Of a stretch of DNA of 64,000 bases, positions 17,154 through 35,783 are shown one piece after another; positions within the stretch are counted from its first letter, which is position 1, and each line of letters opens with the position of its first letter. The stretch comes from Fibrobacter sp. UWB13 (GTDB lineage: Bacteria > Fibrobacterota > Fibrobacteria > Fibrobacterales > Fibrobacteraceae): positions 620,001 through 684,000 of the forward strand of contig NZ_FXAX01000001.1 in NCBI RefSeq assembly GCF_900177805.1, in the 5' to 3' direction. The position numbers and the translations under genes are program-made. The notes below the pieces were generated by a model that ran no database searches, had not been told where the DNA came from, and saw only the letters and a list, made by a program, of their open reading frames with translations.

Positions 17154-18284
17154 ATGAACGAAAAATTTCAATGGAAAGCAAAGCGCGAGCGCAAGGCTTT
17201 TATAGCCTTGGCTGACGGAGCCGTATTCCACGGTTACGCCTTTGGCGAAAAGAAAGACACCGTCGGCGAAGCCGTGTTCAACACAGGTATGGCTGGCTAC
17301 AAGCAGATTTTGACCGACCCGTCTTACGCTGGTCAGTTCGTGGTTTTCACCACGGCCGAAGTTGGCGCTTACGCTACGAACTTTGAAAAGTCCGAATCCC
17401 GTCAGGTTTTCTTGAATGGCATTGTCGTGAACTCCCTCGACTGGGTTTCCAAGGAACTGAACGAAGAATCGCTTCATGATTACATGCTCGCCCAGAAGAA
17501 GGCTGGCATTGCAGGCGTTGATACTCGCGCCCTCACGCTCCACCTCCGCACGCACGGCGCCCAGAAAGCTTACCTCCACGTCGAAGACACGGAGATGACC
17601 GAAGCCGAAGCAATCGCAAAGGCAAAGGCTTGGGAAGGCCTCGATGGTCAGGACTACGCGAGCAAGGTGAGTGACCCGAACGGCTACGAATTCAATAACG
17701 AAGGCAAGTACCACATTGTCGCTCTCGATTTCGGTATCAAGACGAACATCTTGAGAAACCTCGCCGCTCAGGACCTGCGCATCACGGTCATGCCGATTGG
17801 CATGAGCTACGAAAAGATCATGGAACAGAAGCCGGATGGCGTGTTCCTCTCCAACGGCCCTGCCGACCCGAACAGCCTCCCGCAGGTTTACAACATGGTC
17901 AAGCAGCTCCTCGGCAAGATCCCTCTCATGGGTATTTGCCTTGGTAACCAGCTCCTCGGCCTTGCTCTCGGTGCTAAGGTTTCCAAGCTTAAGTTCGGCC
18001 ACCACGGCTGCAACCATCCGGTCAAGAACCTCTTGACGGGCGCTGTCGAAATCACGTCACAGAACCACAACTACGCCATTGACGAAACGTCTCTCCCCGC
18101 CGATGTCGAAGTCACGCACATCAACCTGAACGACAATACGGTCGAAGGCATCCGCCACAAAAAGTTCCCGGCATTCAGCGTGCAGTACCATCCGGAATCT
18201 GCCCCGGGTCCGAACGATTCCATGTACTTGTTCGAAGAATTTAAGAAGATGATTGAAGATTTCAAGGGAGGCAAGAATGCCTAA
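17154..18284 (+). CDS. carA: carbamoyl-phosphate synthase small subunit
   Basis: Glutaminase subunit supplying ammonia to CarB for carbamoyl phosphate, the entry to pyrimidine and arginine synthesis. The N-terminal domain has [17 protein letters not shown] and [12 protein letters not shown]; the C-terminal class I GATase domain has Cys262 in GICLGNQ and His346/Glu348 in YHPES. Length 376 is typical. The Shine-Dalgarno is weak, and the start lies three bases after the leader ORF stop, so translation may be coupled. It overlaps the carB start by 8 nt. Confidence 0.97.
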
Positions 18285-21200
18285 GCGTACCGACATCAAG
18301 AAGATTATGCTCATCGGTTCTGGCCCGATTGTGATTGGCCAGGGCTGCGAATTCGACTACTCCGGCGTGCAGGCTTGCAAGGTGCTCCGTCGTGAAGGTT
18401 ACGAAGTGGTGCTCGTGAACTCCAACCCGGCAACCATCATGACCGACCCGGAAATGGCTGACCGCACCTACATCGAACCGCTGAGCGTCGATATTCTCCA
18501 CGAAATCATCCGTCGCGAACGCCCCGATGCATTGCTCCCGACTCTCGGTGGCCAGACCGCCTTGAACCTCGCCATGGAACTCAACGAACGCGGCATTCTC
18601 GACCGCTACCAGGTGGAACTCATCGGTGCTAAAGCCGAATCCATCCAGCGCGCCGAAGACCGTCACTTGTTCAAGGAAGCCATGCTCAAGATCGGGCTGG
18701 ACCTCCCCCGCTCCGGTTCCGCACACTCCATGAGCGAAGCAACCGCTATCGCCCACACCATCGGAAGCTGGCCCTTGATCATCCGTCCGGGCTTTACGCT
18801 TGGTGGTACTGGTGGCGGTATCGCCCACAACGAAGAAGAATTCGAAACCATCGTGAACCGCGGTCTTGACGCCTCGCTCAACAACGAAGTGCTTATCGAA
18901 GAATCGCTCCTCGGCTGGAAAGAATTCGAAATGGAAGTCATGCGCGATAAGAAGGGCAATGCCGTTATCGTCTGCTCCATTGAAAACCTCGACCCGATGG
19001 GCGTTCATACGGGTGACTCCATCACGGTCGCTCCGATCCAGAGCCTTGATGACCGCGCTTACCAGGCCATGCGTGACGACTCCCTGAAGGTCATGGAAGC
19101 TATCGGCGTGGAAACCGGTGGATCTAACGTGCAGTGGGCTATCGAACCGAAGACCGGCCGTCGCATCATCATCGAAATGAACCCGCGTGTGTCCCGTTCT
19201 TCTGCTCTTGCATCCAAGGCAACGGGCTTCCCCATCGCAAAGATTGCAGCACTTCTCGCTGTGGGTTACACGCTTGACGAACTCCGCAACGACATCACGC
19301 AATCTACTCCGAGCTGCTTTGAACCGGCTCTCGACTACGTTGTCGTGAAGGTTCCGCGTTTCACATTCGAAAAGTTCCCGAAGGCAGATTCCACACTCGG
19401 CACCCAGATGAAGTCTGTGGGCGAAGCCATGGCAATCGGTACGAACTTCAAGCAGGCTATGCAGAAGGCTCTCCGCTCTCTCGAAACGGGATTCGGCGGA
19501 TTCGGGGCCTGCGCCAAGTGCGAAAAGTTCAAGGAATATGACGACGAAACACTCGCCAAGGAAGTCGCACGCCCGAGTGCAGAACGCATCTTCGTAGTCT
19601 ACGAAGCATTCCGCCGCGGTTGGGACATCGAAAAACTTTACGAAGTCACCAAGATTGACCGCTACTTCCTCCGTCACCTCGAAGAACTCGCCTGCTTCGA
19701 AGACGAAATCACGGCTGCAGGTTCTATCGAAAACCTCGCCAAGGATAAGGCACTCTTCCGCCAAGCCAAGGAATTCGGCTTCAGCGATATCCAGATCGGT
19801 TACCTCTTCCACAAGACTCCGGAAGAAGTCATGGGTGTGCGTAAGCAGATCGGTCTCGTCCCGAGCTACTACTCCGTCGATACTTGCGCCGGCGAATTCG
19901 AAGCCATCACGCCGTATTACTACAGCTGCTACGCCGACAATACCGAACCTGTCCGCGAAATTCCGGGTCACCAAAGCAAGAAGCGTATCATGGTGCTCGG
20001 CGGCGGTCCGAACAGAATCGGTCAAGGTATTGAATTTGACTACTGCTGCTGCCACGCTGCATTTACGCTCCGCAAGCACGGCTTTGAAGTCATCATGGTG
20101 AACTCCAACCCCGAAACGGTTTCTACCGACTACGATACTTCGGACAAGCTCTACTTTGAACCGCTTACGCTCGAAGACGTGATGGGCATTTACGAACGCG
20201 AAAAGTGCGCGGGCGTGATTGTTCAGTTCGGTGGTCAGACTCCGCTGAACCTTGCTATGCGTCTCAAGAAGGCTGGTGCAAATGTCATCGGTACAAGCCC
20301 CGAAGACATCGACCTCGCCGAAGACCGCGACTTCTTCAAGCAGCTCGTCACCAAGATTGGCATCAAGCAGGCTGAAAGCGGCATTGCACACAACGTCGAA
20401 GAAGCCCTCGCCATTGTCGATAAGATCGGCTACCCGGTTCTCGTGCGCCCGAGCTTCGTTCTCGGTGGCCGCGGCATGGTGATTGTTTACAAGGAAAAGT
20501 ACCTTCGCAAGTTCGTGGAAGAAGCTGCCGCCATTGGCGAAGGCAAGCCGATTCTCATCGACCGCTTCCTCGAAGACGCAACCGAACTCGATGTGGACTG
20601 CATCAGCGATGGCAAGCACACCGTTATCGGCGCTATCATGGAACACGTGGAACCCGCAGGCATCCACTCTGGTGACTCCGCCAGCGTTATCCCGCCGATG
20701 ACTCTCTCCAAGGAAATTCAGGACAAGGTCCGTGAATTCGCCAAGGAATTTGCAAAGGAACTCCACGTTGTCGGTCTCATGAACATGCAGCTCGCCGTCA
20801 AGGATGGCGAACTCTATATGATCGAAGTGAACCCGCGTGCATCACGTACGGTGCCGTTCGTTTCCAAGTCCATCGGCGTGCCGCTCGCAAGCTATGCAAC
20901 ACGCTGCATGACCGGCGAAACGCTCGAACAGATTGGCTTTACCGAAGAAGTCCGCGTACCTTACGTGAGCGTCAAGGAAGCTGTCTTCCCGTTCGTCAAG
21001 TTCCCGGGCGTCGACATCACGCTTTCTCCGGAAATGAAATCCACTGGTGAAGTCATGAGCCTCGATCGCGACCGCGGCCTTGCCTACCTCAAGAGCCAGC
21101 TGGCATCGGGCAACAAGGTCCCGAGCCAGGGCAACATTTTCGTCTCGCTCAAGGACGAAGACAAGCAGAAGGCAGTTCCGCTCATCAAGCGCCTCGTGGA

Positions 21201-21540
21201 CATGGGCTACCAGATTTACGCCACCCGCGGCACCTCTACGATGCTCTACAACGAAGGCATCAAGACCCGCGCCGTGTTCCGCATCTCCCGTGGCCGCCCG
21301 AACCTGCTCGACCTTATCCACGATAAGGAAGTGCAGTGGATCGTGAACACCACCGAAACTGGCGCAGAAGCCATGGTCGACGAAATCCAGATGCGCTCCA
21401 AGGCCGTTGTCTCGGGCATTCCTATCACGACGACCATCGCCGCCCTCACCTCTACCGTTGAAGGTCTCATGGACAAGCATGACTTCGGAAGATTCGAAGT
21501 GTGCAGCCTCCAAGAGTATCATAGGCATGTGAAGAAGTGA
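18277..21540 (+). CDS. carB: carbamoyl-phosphate synthase large subunit
   Basis: Synthesises carbamoyl phosphate from bicarbonate, ammonia and two ATP. It has two homologous ATP-grasp halves (N half beginning [21 protein letters not shown] half beginning [20 protein letters not shown]) and a C-terminal allosteric MGS-like domain from about residue 930. Length 1087 is normal. I start it at ATG 18277 rather than 18253, because GGGAGG lies 5 bp upstream and the family begins MPKR. The 8-nt overlap with carA implies translational coupling. Expression depends on the carA leader. Confidence 0.97.
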
Positions 21541-26532: not shown

Positions 26533-28026
26533 TTATTTCAACACCACTCGTTGCGTCTTCGCATTGCCGAGTTTGACCATGTACACGCCGCGGCTTAAGC
26601 CTGCGCTTGTCATGGCGTTGCGAAGTTCGCCGATGTGTTCCGCTTGGAATTCGCCGATAAACGTACCAATCGGGCTAAATACTTTATATGAGCTTTGATT
26701 TTTTTGTACAGAACGTATCCTGAAGGCTATGGCGTCTGTTGAATCTTTGGGCGGTTCCACCTTTGGCTCTTGCCATAGAATGAATTCGACTGTCGTTGCG
26801 CTGCGGGCCGGGACGCTGTAGCTGCACTTTGTACCGTCAACCTTGACTTCGTTCCCTTCCTTGAGGTTGTTATTGTCGTCGGTGACATAGGGCTTAAAGC
26901 TTCCAATCTTTGTGCTTCCGAAGTCAAAGTCCGCCTTGAATTCCTCATTCTTGGAATTGAGAATGACGACTGCGATTTTCGTCTTGAGGGAGTCGCGGTA
27001 GGCGGTGACCTTTACATCTCTTTCGGGATTCTTGGTAGCATCGATTCTCCAGGAGCCGGGGCGTGCGAAGCGGCTATAGTTTCCCATGACCCAGAGTCGT
27101 TTGGTGGGCTCCACGTTATCGGGGTTGCCTTGTCCTTGTGGCCAAAGCGCTCCGTTACCGCAGCTGGGTTCGCTGCATGAATAAATCCACCAGAAATGCC
27201 AGGCGTTCATATTCGAAATCGTAAGGGCGTCGTGGATCATGTTTGCAACGCGGAGAGCGCTTCCCATGCCAACGTCTTCCTTGTTGCTTCCGAGATCGTA
27301 GACTTCTGTTTCCCAGAATTCTTTGCCTGCTTCATGGATTTCGGGGTAAGCGGCTGGGTCTCCACCGTATTCGTGCGTTCCAAAAATGTCCGTGTATTTT
27401 AAGGCGGCAGGATTGTTGAAGAATGCTTTTTTGTAATTGGGGAATCCGTACCAGTTGATGGCTTCGGTGCCTATGATTTTGATGCCCGTGGTATCGAGGG
27501 TGGGACCAAGATAGTCGCCTACCCAACGAGCCAATTCATCGGGTTCGTAGTGGTTATCGCCGGTGCCGTCAGGCTCATTTTGCGACGAAATCGCGTACAG
27601 GTTGACTCCAGCTTTACGCATGTCTTGCGTAAACTTTAAGATGGTGTTTGCCCAGTCTTGAGCATGATTGAAATCCAGATGCTTTTTGTTGCCATCGTAA
27701 TTTACGGTGTATTTGGATGTCCATGGAGCGGCCCAGACTTTGACGCCGTATTCACTCGCCTTTTTTGCGATACTTGTTTCGGAGGTGGAGCCGTCCGGAG
27801 CAATGCGGATGCGATGCAGCGTAAGCCCCGCGCCGCTAGTGGAGTCCCAAAGGAAGGCTGCGTTTTTGTCGGTAATGGAACCCGCCCATGCCGATGCTGC
27901 ACCAAAGCCGCTGATGCGCTGGTATTCCTTGCCCATGTCAACGTTTATCGTTGCAGCACAGGCAAGAGTGCTCAAAAATGCGATGGAACCTGCAAAAAGA
28001 GAAAATCCCTTAATTGAAACCGTCAT
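26533..28026 (-). CDS. secreted GH30 (xylanase-type) glycoside hydrolase
   Basis: A signal peptide (cleavage about residue 24, LACAA) leads into a GH30 barrel beginning QRISGFGAASAW. SSQNEPDG holds the acid/base Glu151 and FWETEVYD the likely nucleophile Glu241; AYISSQNEP and HFWWIYSC are family blocks. A beta-side domain follows, and the end (YKVFSPIGTFIGEFQAE ... GVYMVKLGN) looks like a type IX-type sorting tail. Closest in style to xylan-acting GH30 enzymes. A strong AAAGGAGG precedes the ATG, and an 18-bp palindrome lies just upstream. Outer-surface xylan degradation is the likely role. Confidence 0.9.
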   Translation of the reverse strand: MTVSIKGFSLFAGSIAFLSTLACAATINVDMGKEYQRISGFGAASAWAGSITDKNAAFLWDSTSGAGLTLHRIRIAPDGSTSETSIAKKASEYGVKVWAAPWTSKYTVNYDGNKKHLDFNHAQDWANTILKFTQDMRKAGVNLYAISSQNEPDGTGDNHYEPDELARWVGDYLGPTLDTTGIKIIGTEAINWYGFPNYKKAFFNNPAALKYTDIFGTHEYGGDPAAYPEIHEAGKEFWETEVYDLGSNKEDVGMGSALRVANMIHDALTISNMNAWHFWWIYSCSEPSCGNGALWPQGQGNPDNVEPTKRLWVMGNYSRFARPGSWRIDATKNPERDVKVTAYRDSLKTKIAVVILNSKNEEFKADFDFGSTKIGSFKPYVTDDNNNLKEGNEVKVDGTKCSYSVPARSATTVEFILWQEPKVEPPKDSTDAIAFRIRSVQKNQSSYKVFSPIGTFIGEFQAEHIGELRNAMTSAGLSRGVYMVKLGNAKTQRVVLK

Positions 28027-28045
28027 ATAGCCTCCTTTGGACCTT

Positions 28046-28063
28046 ACTTACTTTAAAGTAAGT
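28046..28063. promoter_or_regulatory. perfect 18-bp palindrome upstream of the GH30 gene
   Basis: ACTTACTTTAAAGTAAGT, exact and centred 28 bp before the ATG. It is placed like a repressor operator or a 5'-leader hairpin just before the Shine-Dalgarno. Confidence 0.55.
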
Positions 28064-28129
28064 TGAAAAGTTCACTTTTTATGAGGCTAAAAACGAATTT
28101 GTCTTGATAAAATGACAATGATAATGACT

Positions 28130-31100
28130 TTATTGCTTTATCATTGCAATGCGATTTCCGTCCTTTGCAATAAATTTCATCATGGCAGCCCATTCGATGG
28201 CTCTGTCGATGACATCCTTCATTTGCGAAGTGCATTTCGTAAATCCTGAAACTTTCGCAATCAATCGTTCCATTTCTTCGAGCTCGATGCTTATTTGACT
28301 ATCGACAATCGCCTTGACTGCAAATGCAATCTCCTGCATGGGGATGTCGTCCACATTGCGCTTGAATCCGTCTGAAGGTCTCCTAAATTCAACAAGTCCC
28401 TTGCTATCCGGGTTCCAATAGAAAGTCTTTCCATTTTCTTGCTTTTCGGCAAAATGGAGATACTTACAAAAACCGTGTATGCGATTTATGAATTTTTGCG
28501 TGCGCTTGGCATTCCACAAATCCGAGAGACGAGCGTCGAGTACGGTAGACGAGATTGGAGATTCCGCTCTTACGATTTTCTCGATCTGACTTTTCAGAAG
28601 TTCTGTAGAAGACATATCATATATGTCGCGACCTTTGGGCGGGTGCTCCACATTTGCGAGCTGATACGTTTTGAACATCGACTGGAATGTTTTTAGCCCG
28701 GTGGTTTCATCGGAGACATTTGTCCCCGTATCACCACTTGCGTTTTCCGCCGGAAGCGCCGTTTCTTCGACTGGGCTTGTTTCGACATCATCAATTAAAA
28801 CGGGCTGCTTTTCCTTTTCGATGATTTGGTCAATCTTTTGCTTTATTCCCTGCACAATGCGGTCGCGGTGTTCCCTGTTCAAGAACCATTCAAATGACCA
28901 CAAGCGGACAATGTTCCATCCGAGTGTTTCTAGGATACTTTGTTGTAAAACGTTTCTGTCTTTTGCTGTGCGGGCTTTCTTGTAGTTTTTCCCGTCGCAA
29001 AGAATTCCCAAAATGAACTTCTTTTCGTTTTCGGGATGTACAATTGCCAAGTCCATTTTAAACTTCGAACAACCGACATCCAGTTCAACGTTATAGCCTA
29101 ATTTTTTCAGTTCATTTGCAATTGAAATTTTGAAGAAATCTTTCGCAGACGTAGCCCCTGCAACATGCGATACCGGGAGCGCCCTCTTGCCGTATTTTGC
29201 ATAAGTCAAGAACGCTTTGAGTCCAGCGACACCTTCGGACGAAGACCTATTCAAGTCAATCTGTTCCGGCTGCAATGTCGAATACACAAGCATTTCATAA
29301 CGCGAACGGGAAACCGCCACGTTCAAGCGACGCCATCCGCCGGCATTGTTGATCGGTCCGAAATTGAGCGACACGTTTCCATTATGGTCCGGTCCGTACC
29401 CAATAGAGAAAATAATCACGTCGCGTTCATCACCCTGTACGCTTTCCAGATTCTTGATGAAAATCTCCTCGCCAGACGTTTTCGACCATTCTTCCAATTT
29501 CGGATTTTTGGAGAATTCATCATCGAGCAAGTCATCAATGAGATTCTGCTGAACAACGCTAAACGTGACGACCCCGATGCTTTTTTTGCGTTCGGATTTG
29601 TCTTTTAAGCGTCTGATTATTTCTTCCACTATTAGTTTCGCTTCGGCGAGGTTTTGGCGGGTCTTGCTTCGATCGTATGTACCCTTGACCGGAATGAACT
29701 TCACGCAACCTTCTATATCGCTTGGCGACGGGAACGTAAATAACTTATGGTCATAGTATTTGTAGTTACTAAAAGCAATGAGGCTTTCGTCTTTCGAACG
29801 GTAATGCCAAAGCAAGTGCATTTCGGGCATAGAGATTGCCAAGCAATCGTCCAAAATGCTTTCCAAGTCTTCCTTGTCTAGATTGTCTTCGTCAGTATAT
29901 CCCTTTTTGAAGAAACTTGTCGGGGGCATTTGTTTGGGGTCGCCGACAACGATGAGATTTTCTCCGCGTGCAATCGCGCCAACCGCTTCGCAAGTCGGTA
30001 GCTGGGACGCTTCGTCAAAAATGACAAGGTCAAATTTTGGGAATGTCGGACCGATATATTGCGCCACAGAAATCGGGCTCATCAACATGCACGGGGTCAG
30101 CTTGCGTAGTAAAGTAGGGATTGAATCGAACAACTGGCGTATGGATTTTCCCTTGCATTTGCTTGCGATGCTCCTCTTCAAAATGCCAATTTCAGATGAC
30201 GACGCGACCATTGTAGAAGATGGAATATTCGCCGAAAGTTTTGCAATAAGTTCTTTACGGGTAAGCTCGGCAAATTTTTCGATGGACTGCTTGTAATGCT
30301 TGATTTCGTGTTCAATCAAGCTAGCGTTGATGTTGCCTAATTCAGAATCTTCTTCGATGTAAAGGATTATCAGTCGATAAGCAACGTTTGTTCTAAACGC
30401 AGTCGTCACATCAGAAATTGCAACTCGTCCTGATTCAATCGCACGAGAAACGCATTTTATGCCTAAATCAGCGAGAGTCTTTTTGCAGGCATTGTAATTA
30501 CACCAGTCACGCAATCCGTGGAGGTTGGCTTTCCATGAACGGATTTTTTCTAGGAGCCCTGTTGTCCAATTATCGCCAAATGGAATTTCTCGTTCCATGT
30601 TTGTTAAGGTGCGAATGAACCTCCAGAGATTTTGCATTTCCTCATAGGTTCGCTTAAAATCAGCGAGAACTTTGTTGTTTCTTTCGCGGAATGTTCCTAA
30701 GTCTGCTATATCTTTGCATGCAGCGCTAATGTCGTTTGGATCATTGTATAGGCGGCTTATTATTCCGTACTGTTTCGTGCCTAGAGCGTATTGTTGTTCA
30801 AGAAGATTCCAGTCGCTTTTGTACGATTTCCAGAAATTGCCATAGGCATTCGAAAGAACTGCTGCGGATTCGTCAATCGATTTTGAGTGCCGTTTGAATT
30901 CAACCAATTTGTCCAGTATTTCGGCGACGTGGTCTTTATCAATTTTCGGATTTTTCGCCAGACGCCTAAGTGCCGAAATTGTTTTTCTCTGACCGAAAAA
31001 TTTCGGAATGAACCATTTGGCAGATGCGTCCTTCCATTCTCCGCGTAAAGCGACGGCATCGATGTCATAGATTTCAGGTTCAAATATGTTATCTATTTTA

Positions 31101-33997
31101 TCCTGAATTTCATTTCTCAGGCGTCCATTTTTACAGGCATCCGCCAAAGCATTTTCAAAGTCAGAATTTCCCTTAAATAAAACGCCCAATGGCAATGCAT
31201 CGATTGTTCCGAGATTATCACATAAAGATGATAACGCTTCGGCTTTATCTTGCGAATCAATATTCAGCGTTGTAAATTTTTGTTTGAGTTCCGAAAGGAT
31301 TTCCGAAATGTGGATGACGCAATGTTCAAGTTGATCTAAGAAGTTTGAAATGTTTTCTCGCTCCGTCTCGGAATATTGGTAACAGTTCCAATCTGAAAGC
31401 GGATGACTAGACACATTTCCACAAAGTTCGCCCATGATTTTGAAACGATCACTAGCGTCGAACCATTCTTTCAATTTTGCGGAATCTGCGCTCTTTACAA
31501 GATTGTTCTTGACAGGAATTGCTCCGACAAATTCCGGATGTTCCTCGAAGAGTCCAATGACGTCGTAAAGGGAATATCCTGAAGCGCGAACCTTGTGGAT
31601 TTTATCCATAAGGCTATTCAAATGGACGCGCATCTTGTGGAGATTTTCGGCTTCAGATTTGTATTCGCTCGGTGCTTGGCGTTTCCCAAATTCCAATGCT
31701 GAATTCAGTTGCTTCATGACCGAAGACTTGTTTGCCTTATTGGAATGGAGCTCAAGACAAAAAGCACCAAGTCCTTGCTTCTCAAGACGGTTTTGAACAA
31801 CAGAAAGGGCCGCCATTTTCTCGGCAATAAACAGCACGGATTTTCCGTTGAACAAAGCATTTGCAATCATGTTTGTAATGGTCTGCGATTTTCCGGTTCC
31901 CGGAGGACCATGCAGCACAAAGCTACACCCTTTCGCAGCAGAACAGATTGCCGCCATCTGTGAAGAATCGGCGCTTAGCGGAATTGCCATGTCCGAAGGC
32001 TTGAACGATGCATCCAATGTTTCTGATGCAACAAGTTCCGGCAGAGTTTCTGGAAGTACTCCGTCAATAAGCCCCTTGACAATCTTATTCTTGGAAAGTT
32101 CTTCACTACGTTGTCTGATATCGTTCCACATGATATATTGCGAGAACGAGAACTGTCCAATAAATGCGTAATCTACAACATCCCAGCGCTTCTTGTTTTT
32201 GATAGCTTGGCGGACTGTCGCGAAAATTTTCTTTATATCTAAACCGCTCCCGTCAATTGGCAACGGATCAAGACCGTTTATGACAAGATTGAATTCCCCA
32301 CGCAGTTTCTCAAGTAACGTAATGTTGAATTGCGGTTCTTCATCGCGTTCGCGAATGATAAAGTTTTGTCCAGCCGATTTATGGACAATTTCAAGAGGCA
32401 ACAAAACAAGAGGAGCATAAAGAGCTTTTTCGCTGACCTTCGTCTCGTACCATTTTAAGAATCCAAGTGCGAGGTATAGCGTGTTGGAGCCGTTTTCTTC
32501 TAGGCTGGCTCTTGCGGCGCGGTACAGTGCACGAATTTTATTTTCTGTTTCCGTCTTCCCCATGAAAGTGCGAAGGCGTTTGTTCTGGAATTCATGATCC
32601 AGAAGTTCATCGATATCATCGTCTTTGGCGATGGAAATGAAGTTGTTTTCAAATTCCTTTTTCCGTCCGTCAAAAAATTCAACAATCTTGAATTCCTCTT
32701 TTGCTGTAAGGGCGTCTTCCAAAATTCCCAAATCATTGCAAATCAGCTGAATGGACTTGCCTGTCGGTTTGAAATTCAAAAGTGAATTTCGGAGCGTCAT
32801 GTTCAGGAGCTTGTTCTGCCAAATTCTCTGCTTGCTGTGTTTTACGGGACCTTCGCTTTCGTCCTTTTCTGCAATTTCGATTTCTTCGGGAGCGCTCCAC
32901 GTCGTTTCATCTAGCTTTTCTTCTTGATTTTCAGGCAGTTTTTCCAAATTGCCTTCTGCATCATATTTTCTCTGCGGAATCGGGCGAATTGAATTGCCAA
33001 ATCTGGCTTGTTTTACATCGATAAAAAACTGAAAATAGTTTTCTTTCAAAAGATGATTTTTCGCTTCGTTGACGGCTTTGTCAAAATCAATCTGTGTTCC
33101 TTGTGCAAAAAGAGTACATTCAACAAGACAAATTTCACCGACATCGTTGCTGACGCGTTTCGAAAGAAGGCTTAGGTCATCCTGGACTGCACTGGCAAAC
33201 GTCTCTTCAACAAGCCAACAGCCTGCAAATGCGTGGTCCTTTGTCAGAACGATAATCGGGTGGAGCCACGCTTGTTCCAAACATGAGGCGTAAAGAATCG
33301 AGAGGTCTAGGCAAGTTCCCAATTTTTGCGTTGCAATTTCATCACAAGTTCTGATTTTCTGTCCTGAAATTTCAAAGCCTTGCGGAGGCATGGAGTAATG
33401 GATATCCAACTCTTCTAGAGCTGCAAAAATGGCAGCCATCTGCTTTAGCACATGATTTTCACTTTTCCTCTGGTAACCACATAATGCCCCATCACCCGTC
33501 CACGATTTCAGCTTTTCCGATGCTCGGCGCAGTACCTGTGCTACAAGCGGATGATTCGGTGTAATGTAGGCGGCAAGTAATTCGGGCAAGACATAATCGC
33601 CACCCCATTCATTATAGGCAAGTAAACTAATTTCTTGCGTCAGCCGTTCTACTTCGACCGAGTTCACGGATACCACAATTTCAAGGAGCCCTGCAAAGCG
33701 TTCTGTAATACCCATGAAAAAATTGGGATCTAGATGCAAGTCGACCACTTCCGAAAATGTCTGCCGGTCATCTGGTGATGTAATATCCACCAATTCCTGT
33801 GGGTCGAGATTTTCAAAGGTGTATTTCGCTGGAGCTGAAAATTCCGGTTTTGCAAAAATTTCAACCGTTATCTTTTCCAAACGTTTTTCTGATATGTTGG
33901 CAATCTGCAATGAACGGATGACAGGAACACGATTCTGCTGCATTGCAAAGTTTAAGACTTTCGAAAAATCACACTTGACTTTAATTAACTTGCCCAT
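28130..33997 (-). CDS. giant DUF4011/DUF3320 superfamily I helicase with REase domain
   Basis: 1955 residues in one frame. The N-terminal 350 residues include a transglutaminase-like patch (LGTCLDLSILYASC ... KDHAFAGCW). A DUF4011-type region follows, then an SF1 helicase core: Walker A GPPGTGKS near 697, DEAS near 1327 with VVGDPKQMPPTSFF, QGDERDVIIFS, and motif VI NVAVSRSRYEMLV. Near 1640-1720 is an MTES_1575/Vsr-like nuclease domain (FKMDLAIVHP, CDGKNYKKARTAKDRN, LGWNIVRLWS). DUF3320 occupies the last about 140 residues. Such proteins are suspected of nucleic-acid defence or maintenance, without a settled role. It stands alone, with no methylase or partner nearby. Confidence 0.88.
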   Translation of the reverse strand: MGKLIKVKCDFSKVLNFAMQQNRVPVIRSLQIANISEKRLEKITVEIFAKPEFSAPAKYTFENLDPQELVDITSPDDRQTFSEVVDLHLDPNFFMGITERFAGLLEIVVSVNSVEVERLTQEISLLAYNEWGGDYVLPELLAAYITPNHPLVAQVLRRASEKLKSWTGDGALCGYQRKSENHVLKQMAAIFAALEELDIHYSMPPQGFEISGQKIRTCDEIATQKLGTCLDLSILYASCLEQAWLHPIIVLTKDHAFAGCWLVEETFASAVQDDLSLLSKRVSNDVGEICLVECTLFAQGTQIDFDKAVNEAKNHLLKENYFQFFIDVKQARFGNSIRPIPQRKYDAEGNLEKLPENQEEKLDETTWSAPEEIEIAEKDESEGPVKHSKQRIWQNKLLNMTLRNSLLNFKPTGKSIQLICNDLGILEDALTAKEEFKIVEFFDGRKKEFENNFISIAKDDDIDELLDHEFQNKRLRTFMGKTETENKIRALYRAARASLEENGSNTLYLALGFLKWYETKVSEKALYAPLVLLPLEIVHKSAGQNFIIRERDEEPQFNITLLEKLRGEFNLVINGLDPLPIDGSGLDIKKIFATVRQAIKNKKRWDVVDYAFIGQFSFSQYIMWNDIRQRSEELSKNKIVKGLIDGVLPETLPELVASETLDASFKPSDMAIPLSADSSQMAAICSAAKGCSFVLHGPPGTGKSQTITNMIANALFNGKSVLFIAEKMAALSVVQNRLEKQGLGAFCLELHSNKANKSSVMKQLNSALEFGKRQAPSEYKSEAENLHKMRVHLNSLMDKIHKVRASGYSLYDVIGLFEEHPEFVGAIPVKNNLVKSADSAKLKEWFDASDRFKIMGELCGNVSSHPLSDWNCYQYSETERENISNFLDQLEHCVIHISEILSELKQKFTTLNIDSQDKAEALSSLCDNLGTIDALPLGVLFKGNSDFENALADACKNGRLRNEIQDKIDNIFEPEIYDIDAVALRGEWKDASAKWFIPKFFGQRKTISALRRLAKNPKIDKDHVAEILDKLVEFKRHSKSIDESAAVLSNAYGNFWKSYKSDWNLLEQQYALGTKQYGIISRLYNDPNDISAACKDIADLGTFRERNNKVLADFKRTYEEMQNLWRFIRTLTNMEREIPFGDNWTTGLLEKIRSWKANLHGLRDWCNYNACKKTLADLGIKCVSRAIESGRVAISDVTTAFRTNVAYRLIILYIEEDSELGNINASLIEHEIKHYKQSIEKFAELTRKELIAKLSANIPSSTMVASSSEIGILKRSIASKCKGKSIRQLFDSIPTLLRKLTPCMLMSPISVAQYIGPTFPKFDLVIFDEASQLPTCEAVGAIARGENLIVVGDPKQMPPTSFFKKGYTDEDNLDKEDLESILDDCLAISMPEMHLLWHYRSKDESLIAFSNYKYYDHKLFTFPSPSDIEGCVKFIPVKGTYDRSKTRQNLAEAKLIVEEIIRRLKDKSERKKSIGVVTFSVVQQNLIDDLLDDEFSKNPKLEEWSKTSGEEIFIKNLESVQGDERDVIIFSIGYGPDHNGNVSLNFGPINNAGGWRRLNVAVSRSRYEMLVYSTLQPEQIDLNRSSSEGVAGLKAFLTYAKYGKRALPVSHVAGATSAKDFFKISIANELKKLGYNVELDVGCSKFKMDLAIVHPENEKKFILGILCDGKNYKKARTAKDRNVLQQSILETLGWNIVRLWSFEWFLNREHRDRIVQGIKQKIDQIIEKEKQPVLIDDVETSPVEETALPAENASGDTGTNVSDETTGLKTFQSMFKTYQLANVEHPPKGRDIYDMSSTELLKSQIEKIVRAESPISSTVLDARLSDLWNAKRTQKFINRIHGFCKYLHFAEKQENGKTFYWNPDSKGLVEFRRPSDGFKRNVDDIPMQEIAFAVKAIVDSQISIELEEMERLIAKVSGFTKCTSQMKDVIDRAIEWAAMMKFIAKDGNRIAMIKQ

Positions 33998-34199
33998 GTA
34001 AACCTCGTGATGAAATATATATTAATGGGAATTCTCTTTTTTGCTGTGCTCTCCTCCCCTATATAAAACGCTTTGTTGCATATAGAAAATGTTTTGACAA
34101 TTTTCTCAACAGAAATAGCGATATTTCAAAAATTTACACATTTTTGTTGTGTTGCTGAATTATATTTTAAGTTGTGTAAAACAAGAAGGAGGTGTTAAC

Positions 34200-35783
34200 A
34201 TGAAAAAGAAATGGTTGGCGGTTATAGCGTTTTCGCTATTGAGTACCGCTTGTAGCGACGATAATGGCGCTAATTTTGCGAGTACCGCGGGCATCGACGA
34301 AACTCCCGTAAGTGCGGGGATCGAAAGCTCCGGTGCAGAAAGCTCAAGTGTCGAAAGCTCTGCCGATAGTCCCAAAGCCGAAAGCAGTTCTGCAATGTCT
34401 TCTAGCATTGAAAGCTCTGCAGAAAGTTCTACAGAAAGCTCCGCTGAAAGTAGCTCGGGAACAGAAAGTTCCTCAAGTGTTACGCCCAAAAGCAGCGCGG
34501 CAAATACCACAGATACGCCTTTTGGTGACTATGAATTTGCCCTTACTGATAGCTACGAAGGCGGTGCGGGCGCTCCTGGTGGCTTTGGCGGCGGATTCTC
34601 TGATGCAACCACTTCTACGAAAGGCGGCGGTGCCGGTGGCGTAACAGGTGGTGCCGGAGGCGTTAGCGTAACAGGCGGATCTCCAGGGGGCGCTGGTGGT
34701 GTCGGCGGAACGAGCGGCGCGGGAGGCCTTGGTGGCACAAACAACAGAACATCGGGTTTGCTCACGGCTGGTGAATGGAACGATCTCGACAATTGGAAGT
34801 TCTGGAGCGACCTCCTCAACGAAAACAAGTATTACGAAAAAACGAGTTACTGGAAATTCTATCCCAAGAATTTAGTGGCAGTACAAGTTGTCGACGGGAA
34901 TAACACGGCCATTGCAAACGTCCCCGTGGAACTCCTTAAGGGAGGCTCCGTACAATTCTCCACAAAGACGGATAATGCCGGGTTCGCTTACTGCTGGCAG
35001 AGCCTTTTTGCCAATGATGATAGCGATATCGTAGCGGCCGATTATTCTCTTAACGTCAATGGCGCAAGCTATATCGAACCGCTAAAGTTCACAATGCAGG
35101 GCGATGAACAAGTCAATCTTAACGTTGTCGTAAGTGCCGACGCCCAACAGGCCGCAGCAAAAGCCGATATCGCATTCATCGTGGATGCAACAGGCTCCAT
35201 GACCGACGAAATCCGCTTCCTCATTTCGGACCTCAATTACATTATCGACCACGCTAGTTCGGGCAACAACATCGCTTTGCGCACTGCAGCATTGTTCTAC
35301 CGCGATGTCCAAGACGAATACATCACTCGATACGATGATTTTTCAGATAACGTTTCTATGACTCAGGAATTTGTCGCCAAACAGAAAGCAGGCGGTGGTG
35401 GCGACTATCCCGAAGCTGTTGACTATGCACTTGAAGCTGCCTTGCAAAAGCTTTCCTGGAACGAATCGGCTCGTGCACGTATCGCTTTCTTAATTCTTGA
35501 CGCCCCTGCGCACCATAAGGACAACGTCATCGAAAGCCTGCAAAAATCTATTGCACTCTTTGCCCAGAACGGCATCAAGATCATCCCGGTAGCTGCTAGC
35601 GGCGTGGACAAGGACACCGAATTTATGCTGAGATTCTTTGAACTTGCAACGGGCGGCACGTACGTCTTCCTCACTAACGATAGCGGCATCGGAAACAAGC
35701 ATATTGAAGCTTCCGTCGGCGATTATGAAGTGGAAAAGCTAGCCGATTTGATGGTCCGCCTCATCAAGAAATATATAGAATAA
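34200..35783 (+). CDS. VWA-domain lipoprotein with Ser-rich and Gly-rich linkers
   Basis: Started at ATG 34200 (AAGGAGG 7 bp upstream), 527 residues. The lipobox LLSTAC places Cys at about residue 18. Residues about 35-105 are a Ser/Glu linker, and about 135-200 a low-complexity Gly-rich stretch. After a small beta domain, a von Willebrand A domain starts near residue 320 with the MIDAS motif DATGS (Asp329) and runs to the end. VWA domains bind proteins through a metal ion; the partner is unknown. Probably outer-membrane anchored, with the linkers spanning away from the surface. Confidence 0.85.
   Translation: MKKKWLAVIAFSLLSTACSDDNGANFASTAGIDETPVSAGIESSGAESSSVESSADSPKAESSSAMSSSIESSAESSTESSAESSSGTESSSSVTPKSSAANTTDTPFGDYEFALTDSYEGGAGAPGGFGGGFSDATTSTKGGGAGGVTGGAGGVSVTGGSPGGAGGVGGTSGAGGLGGTNNRTSGLLTAGEWNDLDNWKFWSDLLNENKYYEKTSYWKFYPKNLVAVQVVDGNNTAIANVPVELLKGGSVQFSTKTDNAGFAYCWQSLFANDDSDIVAADYSLNVNGASYIEPLKFTMQGDEQVNLNVVVSADAQQAAAKADIAFIVDATGSMTDEIRFLISDLNYIIDHASSGNNIALRTAALFYRDVQDEYITRYDDFSDNVSMTQEFVAKQKAGGGGDYPEAVDYALEAALQKLSWNESARARIAFLILDAPAHHKDNVIESLQKSIALFAQNGIKIIPVAASGVDKDTEFMLRFFELATGGTYVFLTNDSGIGNKHIEASVGDYEVEKLADLMVRLIKKYIE

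Follow-up and report, generated by a model that had tools for sequence, protein, structure and literature searches.

The window analysed here, a stretch of 64,000 nucleotides from Fibrobacter sp. UWB13 (contig NZ_FXAX01000001.1, positions 620,001 to 684,000), encodes a protein of 1955 residues that, judged by its sequence, is almost certainly a full-length member of the NCBIfam ProA family (NF058533) and very probably serves in defence. The family is already named, so the protein is not new as such and the find is a further member. The new detail is a well-supported ProA clade, to which this protein belongs, in which the nuclease site has lost its conserved Glu but the helicase motifs and, with one exception, the Cys-His-Glu triad are retained. 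Taken as a whole, the evidence leads us to favour, with some caution, a one-gene anti-phage or anti-plasmid ProA protein that was gained by replacement and in whose clade a peptidase-like domain is the likelier effector.

The open reading frame (28130-33997, minus strand) starts with ATG and is uninterrupted, with no internal stops, as had been described correctly in a sequence-only reading of this DNA; the SF1 helicase, MTES_1575 nuclease and DUF3320 that the same reading had assigned to the protein were all matched by Pfam (Table 1). Against NF058533, the NCBI-curated equivalog "anti-phage protein ProA", the protein scored 2043.4 bits and matched profile positions 1-1902 of 1903. Since it passes the cut-off (1500) of a curated anti-phage equivalog, the defence reading is supported, and with it the earlier proposal of a single-gene defence candidate. 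PDC-S37, a single-gene system, was the nearest PADLOC model in a search without a cut-off; this candidate model scored 1224.8 bits over residues 392-1947 (profile positions 12-1541 of 1550). Membership of Hhe (NF042953) was rejected, as the score of 790.1 bits lies far under the curated cut-off of 2000. The GC content of the gene is 43.6%, compared with 48.2% for the whole window.

Table 1. Features of the ProA locus, in positions of the window
Feature	Position	Strand	Basis
ProA-family gene, 1955 aa	28130..33997	-	NF058533 match over protein residues 16-1920 (2043 bits; cut-off 1500)
N-terminal beta-sandwich, residues 1-130	33608..33997	-	AlphaFold model (blocks mostly pLDDT 82-93, two blocks 57-66); generic Ig-like or transglutaminase beta-barrel matches, Z about 9-10
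Transglutaminase-like peptidase domain (putative), residues 131-345, with C229, H255 and E293	32963..33607	-	Residue conservation and similarity to a Transglut_core protein
DUF4011 domain, residues 396-565	32303..32812	-	Pfam, 1.7e-46
SF1 (Upf1-like) helicase core with long insertion, residues about 680-1571	29285..31960	-	Pfam AAA_11/AAA_12 segments and motif alignment
MTES_1575 (Vsr-like) nuclease, residues 1622-1710	28868..29134	-	Pfam PF18741, 2.7e-26; predicted fold like I-Bth0305I
C-terminal DUF3320 region, residues about 1791-1955, two predicted winged helices	28133..28627	-	Pfam DUF3320 at 1791-1833 (1.5e-7) and model
Swapped segment, about 5.9 kb	28119..34058	.	Absent from four relatives keeping both flanks at about 85-91% identity

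A transglutaminase-like patch at the N-terminus, which the sequence-only reading had also proposed, is borne out by two lines of evidence. Of the 32 ProA homologues that have the N-terminal region, 31 retain C229, H255 and E293 (one with Asp in place of Glu), and the region matches a stand-alone protein encoded in this genome (L023:8019-9395) that itself scores 23.5 bits against the Pfam model Transglut_core (cut-off 23.0). This stand-alone protein scores 88.6 bits against the ProA model and shares 28% identity with the window protein over 129 residues (E 5e-12). Pfam matched no family on residues 1-390 at E 0.05, so there is no direct match to a transglutaminase model. The AlphaFold model of the N-terminal part (mean pLDDT 79.7) shows a beta-sandwich (about residues 5-125) and then a mixed domain, with a helix beginning at C229 and a strand beginning at H255, and transglutaminases head its list of Foldseek matches (factor XIII, E 8e-5). 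The matches of a second structure aligner cover only the beta-sandwich (residues 2-126), at Z scores of 9-10 that are common to unrelated Ig-like domains, and the transglutaminase catalytic part was absent among its best structural matches. Overall, a putative transglutaminase-superfamily triad, and homology of the N-terminal part to that superfamily, are supported. The stand-alone protein (G000:C1:1568537-1569259) looks by eye like a secreted lipoprotein, with a signal and a lipobox, and has a ProA-type beta-sandwich and transglutaminase-like part; many genomes of the genus have similar matches, in open reading frames that span about 250-620 aa.

The SF1 motif set of the helicase core is complete (GPPGTGKS, FDEASQ, GDPKQ, HYRS, QGDERD and LNVAVSR), with Walker A at G697-S704, the DE of Walker B at 1328-1329, HYR at 1398-1400 and QGDER at 1521-1525, and the four helicase residues that were checked are intact in 33/33 rows of the homologue alignment. 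This alignment comprises 33 rows, 32 of them with the nuclease and eight of them from viral contig scans, which yielded 29 and 6 loci; a genome contig scan with a single protein as query gave one relative only. Residue counts leave out L040, which repeats L021, as well as L003 and L043-L047, which are partial or lack the N-terminal domain.

The nuclease domain matches PF18741 at 91.9 bits, above the Pfam gathering score of 38.2. Inspection of its residues, as suggested by the sequence-only reading, gave a divided picture: the Asp pair (D1649 and D1668) is kept, but the conserved Glu has become Leu (L1666) and the conserved His has become Lys (K1673). The protein thus does not have the full Asp-Glu-Asp-His set read off the MTES_1575/Vsr-like alignment, which we take to be the catalytic residues; Vsr itself is not known to have a Glu at the corresponding place. 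Of the 32 nuclease-bearing ProA rows, ten have Leu, Ile or Met in place of the GxECDG Glu and 22 retain it; the His is likewise kept in 22, Glu and His occur together in 20, and two Asp and one Arg are invariant. Both Glu and His are kept, where aligned, in 6/6 relatives outside ProA (L003, L043-L047). In the model of the C-terminal part (mean pLDDT 74.5), two winged helices accompany a nuclease-like fold. The predicted nuclease part resembles the catalytic domain of I-Bth0305I (Z 10.4, 96 residues), tied with a mitoribosomal protein in the top row, and Foldseek returned no match to the C-terminal model at E 0.001 or better.

The loss of the Glu is largely a property of one lineage. In a tree built on the DUF4011-helicase part, with L042 left out (no nuclease column), nine of the ten Glu-lost rows, including the window protein, form a single clade with 100/100 support; the tenth, an Acinetobacter plasmid copy (L031), lies outside it on a long branch. 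Near-copies were kept in the tree (L038/L039, L028/L037, L029/L099/L106 and L103/L104), and the ten rows therefore stand for about seven lineages. The clade spans this genus, Bacteroides and Bacillota; the nuclease Glu is lost throughout, usually together with the His, and the helicase motifs persist. The Cys-His-Glu triad is kept in nine of the ten Glu-lost rows. The exception is a clade member from Bacillota (L021:10001-15862), which has lost the triad (Cys to Ile, His to Lys) as well as the nuclease Glu and His and keeps the checked helicase residues; the peptidase would therefore not be needed in every clade member. Comparison of the window gene with the copy in genome G006 over 1948 codons, with synonymous sites near saturation, gave a dN/dS of 0.076 overall, 0.071 for the transglutaminase-like domain and 0.075 for the nuclease. 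Given these low values in every domain, no domain looks abandoned, and purifying selection, as estimated from this pair, appears to act on all of them.

On this basis, we propose that the protein would contact invading DNA through its winged helices, its nuclease-fold domain and its SF1 helicase, and that the helicase, as it moves by ATP hydrolysis, would signal the presence of the invader and, presumably, switch on an effector. DNA-driven ATP hydrolysis can reasonably be inferred from the complete helicase motifs and the DNA-binding-looking C-terminus. For most ProA members, either the Vsr-like nuclease or the transglutaminase-like Cys peptidase could serve as effector, or the two together. 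With a substituted nuclease site and a retained triad in the window protein's clade, the likely effector there would shift to the intact peptidase-like domain, and the nuclease fold would more likely be a DNA-binding or structural part. That the putative peptidase-like domain is the effector in this clade is a reasonable suggestion to which we would give at best an even chance. The fuller scheme, a helicase-gated peptidase defence across this genus, Bacteroides and Bacillota in which the nuclease now serves to bind DNA and a putative Cys peptidase, switched on once invading DNA is recognised, cleaves proteins of the phage or the host, is tentative and, in all its details, rather unlikely.

A possible though doubtful alternative retains ProA defence and has the nuclease still cutting: D1649 and D1668 would hold the metal without the Glu, the helicase would feed in invader DNA, and the transglutaminase-like domain would be a regulator or a protein-binding part. 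The strong purifying selection on the nuclease (dN/dS 0.075), the 88% identity of this domain between the two genus copies (window and G006), the two Asp and one Arg invariant in 32/32 rows and the intact predicted fold (Z 10.4 to I-Bth0305I) all speak for this alternative, and with the two Asp and the Arg kept under selection like that elsewhere in the protein, the nuclease may indeed still cut. However, the window protein is without the Glu and the His, although each is kept in 22 of the 32 ProA rows and both in all six outside relatives, and the Cys-His-Glu triad is the more conserved site across the family (31/32 against 22/32 for the nuclease site).

Full-length ProA is rare in the genus, being present in 2/80 genomes, namely the genome studied here and G006, whose copies are 81% identical and lie at different loci (G006 has an estimated contamination of 8%); a third genome, G033, has a ProA relative without the N-terminal domain. 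In the same phylum, 2/150 genomes have a protein over the ProA cut-off, and ProA is present in 5/299 genomes of the phylum around G060. At the locus itself, the flanking GH30-like and VWA genes are conserved in relatives, and in the four relatives with both flanks together (G001, G380, G014 and G365) the DNA between window positions 28118 and 34059, which holds exactly this one gene, is replaced. The replacement in three of them is one 864-aa gene encoding an SNF2 helicase fused to a SprT-like domain; in G365 it is a fragment of this gene and another ORF. No mobile-element ends were seen at the swap junctions, and a mobile element at the swap was rejected, as the repeats within 27950-34250 were limited to short pairs that look like chance matches. 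The copy in G006 lies beside a DnaA-like gene and two genes matching PDC-M42A/B, about 2.7 kb from a type IIG restriction-methylation gene (1108 bits), and the stretch beside that genome's own GH30 gene (L055) has no DNA match to the ProA gene. The window gene was thus probably gained by gene replacement, and its locus would be an additional example of the exchange of single defence genes where no mobile element is visible. The SNF2-SprT gene found at this site in relatives (L048:1711-4305, minus strand) occurs in 4/80 genus genomes and is DrmD/DpdE-like by PADLOC (354 bits); its 864-aa product is possibly another one-gene defence protein.

The window gene stands among polysaccharide and surface genes, and PADLOC at 1e-10 found no defence gene among the 19 ORFs around it, the only match being to a QueC model, in agreement with the earlier remark that other defence genes are lacking here. 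Homologues gave a different result when defence-island association was examined, as had also been suggested: they lie near restriction, BREX-type and toxin-antitoxin genes, whereas the window copy does not. ProA matches occur on 453 plasmid records, conjugative Klebsiella plasmids among them; in 55 records the match spans 80% of the query or more. Seventeen plasmid surroundings were inspected, 16 of them annotated, and in 11 of these 16 defence or toxin-antitoxin genes lie within 10-12 kb, counted by product names and with no background control; two are borderline (L028 and L036) and three have none (L034, L138 and L140). Plasmids are generally rich in toxin-antitoxin genes. The 64 neighbour ORFs at seven non-plasmid loci include type I restriction genes and PglW, as matched by PADLOC.

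Several further observations were made on these surroundings. The ProA genes of Rhizobiales (L032, L133, L136 and L036) adjoin an SbcD-like exonuclease gene, with multiubiquitin or ThiF genes in three of the four loci, and by this arrangement sit as if they were part of a multi-gene system. The Bacteroides "plasmid" with the best ProA match (L028, NZ_OY725931.1) also carries rpsA, ftsK and a glutamine synthetase gene and resembles a chromosomal fragment that was recorded as a plasmid. Elsewhere in the window, long ORFs of 1095 aa (18253-21540, plus strand) and 834 aa (18262-20766, minus strand) overlap on opposite strands, and one of them is probably spurious.

That the protein is instead a housekeeping or DNA-repair helicase with no part in defence is very improbable. 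Its position among polysaccharide and surface genes would suit such a role, and, since a degenerate relative is found universally in the genus as a single copy (77/80 genomes), related proteins can be domesticated. However, full ProA itself is confined to two of the 80 genus genomes at different loci, unrelated DNA occupies the site in 4/4 relatives with both flanks, and relatives are found in plasmid and defence-neighbour contexts; on the rarity and the replaced locus, the housekeeping reading was rejected. Universal presence at one locus, named beforehand as the sign of housekeeping, was thus looked for and not found for full ProA, although a universal relative does exist, as a degenerate paralogue at another locus. 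Even less probable is a decaying, non-functional remnant, which the substituted nuclease residues might suggest, in view of the open 1955-aa frame, the dN/dS of 0.076 in the 1948-codon comparison with the G006 copy and the intact helicase motifs and triad.

The paralogue, of roughly 1360 aa (L024:9056-13138; G000:C1:1864055-1868134; L068-L097), occurs once per genome in the 77 genomes that have it, and in 40/40 of the most complete genus genomes. All helicase motifs are lost in 30/30 aligned copies, dN/dS is 0.07-0.12 in five comparisons, and a GluQ-RS-like gene (named by eye) adjoins it in 29/30 loci. From these sequences, it has the appearance of a pseudo-helicase that descends from a defence-type protein and has been conserved.

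A literature search on ProA, DUF4011, DUF3320, PDC-S37 and Hhe found, in the accessible parts of the sources, no study of the ProA family except the 2013 work discussed below (PMC3710099) and a paper on Pseudomonas hotspots, in whose accessible part a core DUF4011 gene serves as marker; the main text of a rumen defence survey (PMC11834463) makes no mention of PDC-S37, Hhe or DUF4011. Among the known models, PDC-S37 resembles the window protein over residues 392-1947 (1225 bits) and begins after the N-terminal domain, so that the window protein has an extra beta-sandwich and transglutaminase-like part. Hhe (NF042953, DUF4011 anti-phage protein) has DUF4011, the helicase and the nuclease in common with it; the window protein stays under its curated cut-off, and Hhe is a sister family. 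Giant proteins combining HEPN, transglutaminase, SF1 helicase, Vsr and wHTH were described in 2013 (Anantharaman 2013, PMC3710099), and in the accessible part of that article the authors proposed that they act without modification, the wHTH recognising DNA, the Vsr-type domain cleaving it and the transglutaminase-like domain possibly cleaving protein. As far as that part describes them, the giants and the window protein are both single genes without a methylase that have a transglutaminase-like domain, an SF1 helicase, a Vsr-type nuclease and DUF3320/wHTH; the window protein differs in having no HEPN by Pfam and a substituted nuclease site.

The closest likeness is to ProA itself, which the window protein matches over its whole length, above the curated cut-off and with the same domain order. 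It departs from the family, together with its clade, in being without the nuclease Glu and mostly also without the His, the Glu being kept in 22/32 sampled members. The Glu-lost clade is therefore a natural experiment within ProA, in which the nuclease site has changed and the helicase and Cys-His-Glu triad have been kept, and it makes directly testable whether the peptidase-like domain, put forward in the accessible part of the 2013 article (PMC3710099) as a further line of defence, is the effector.
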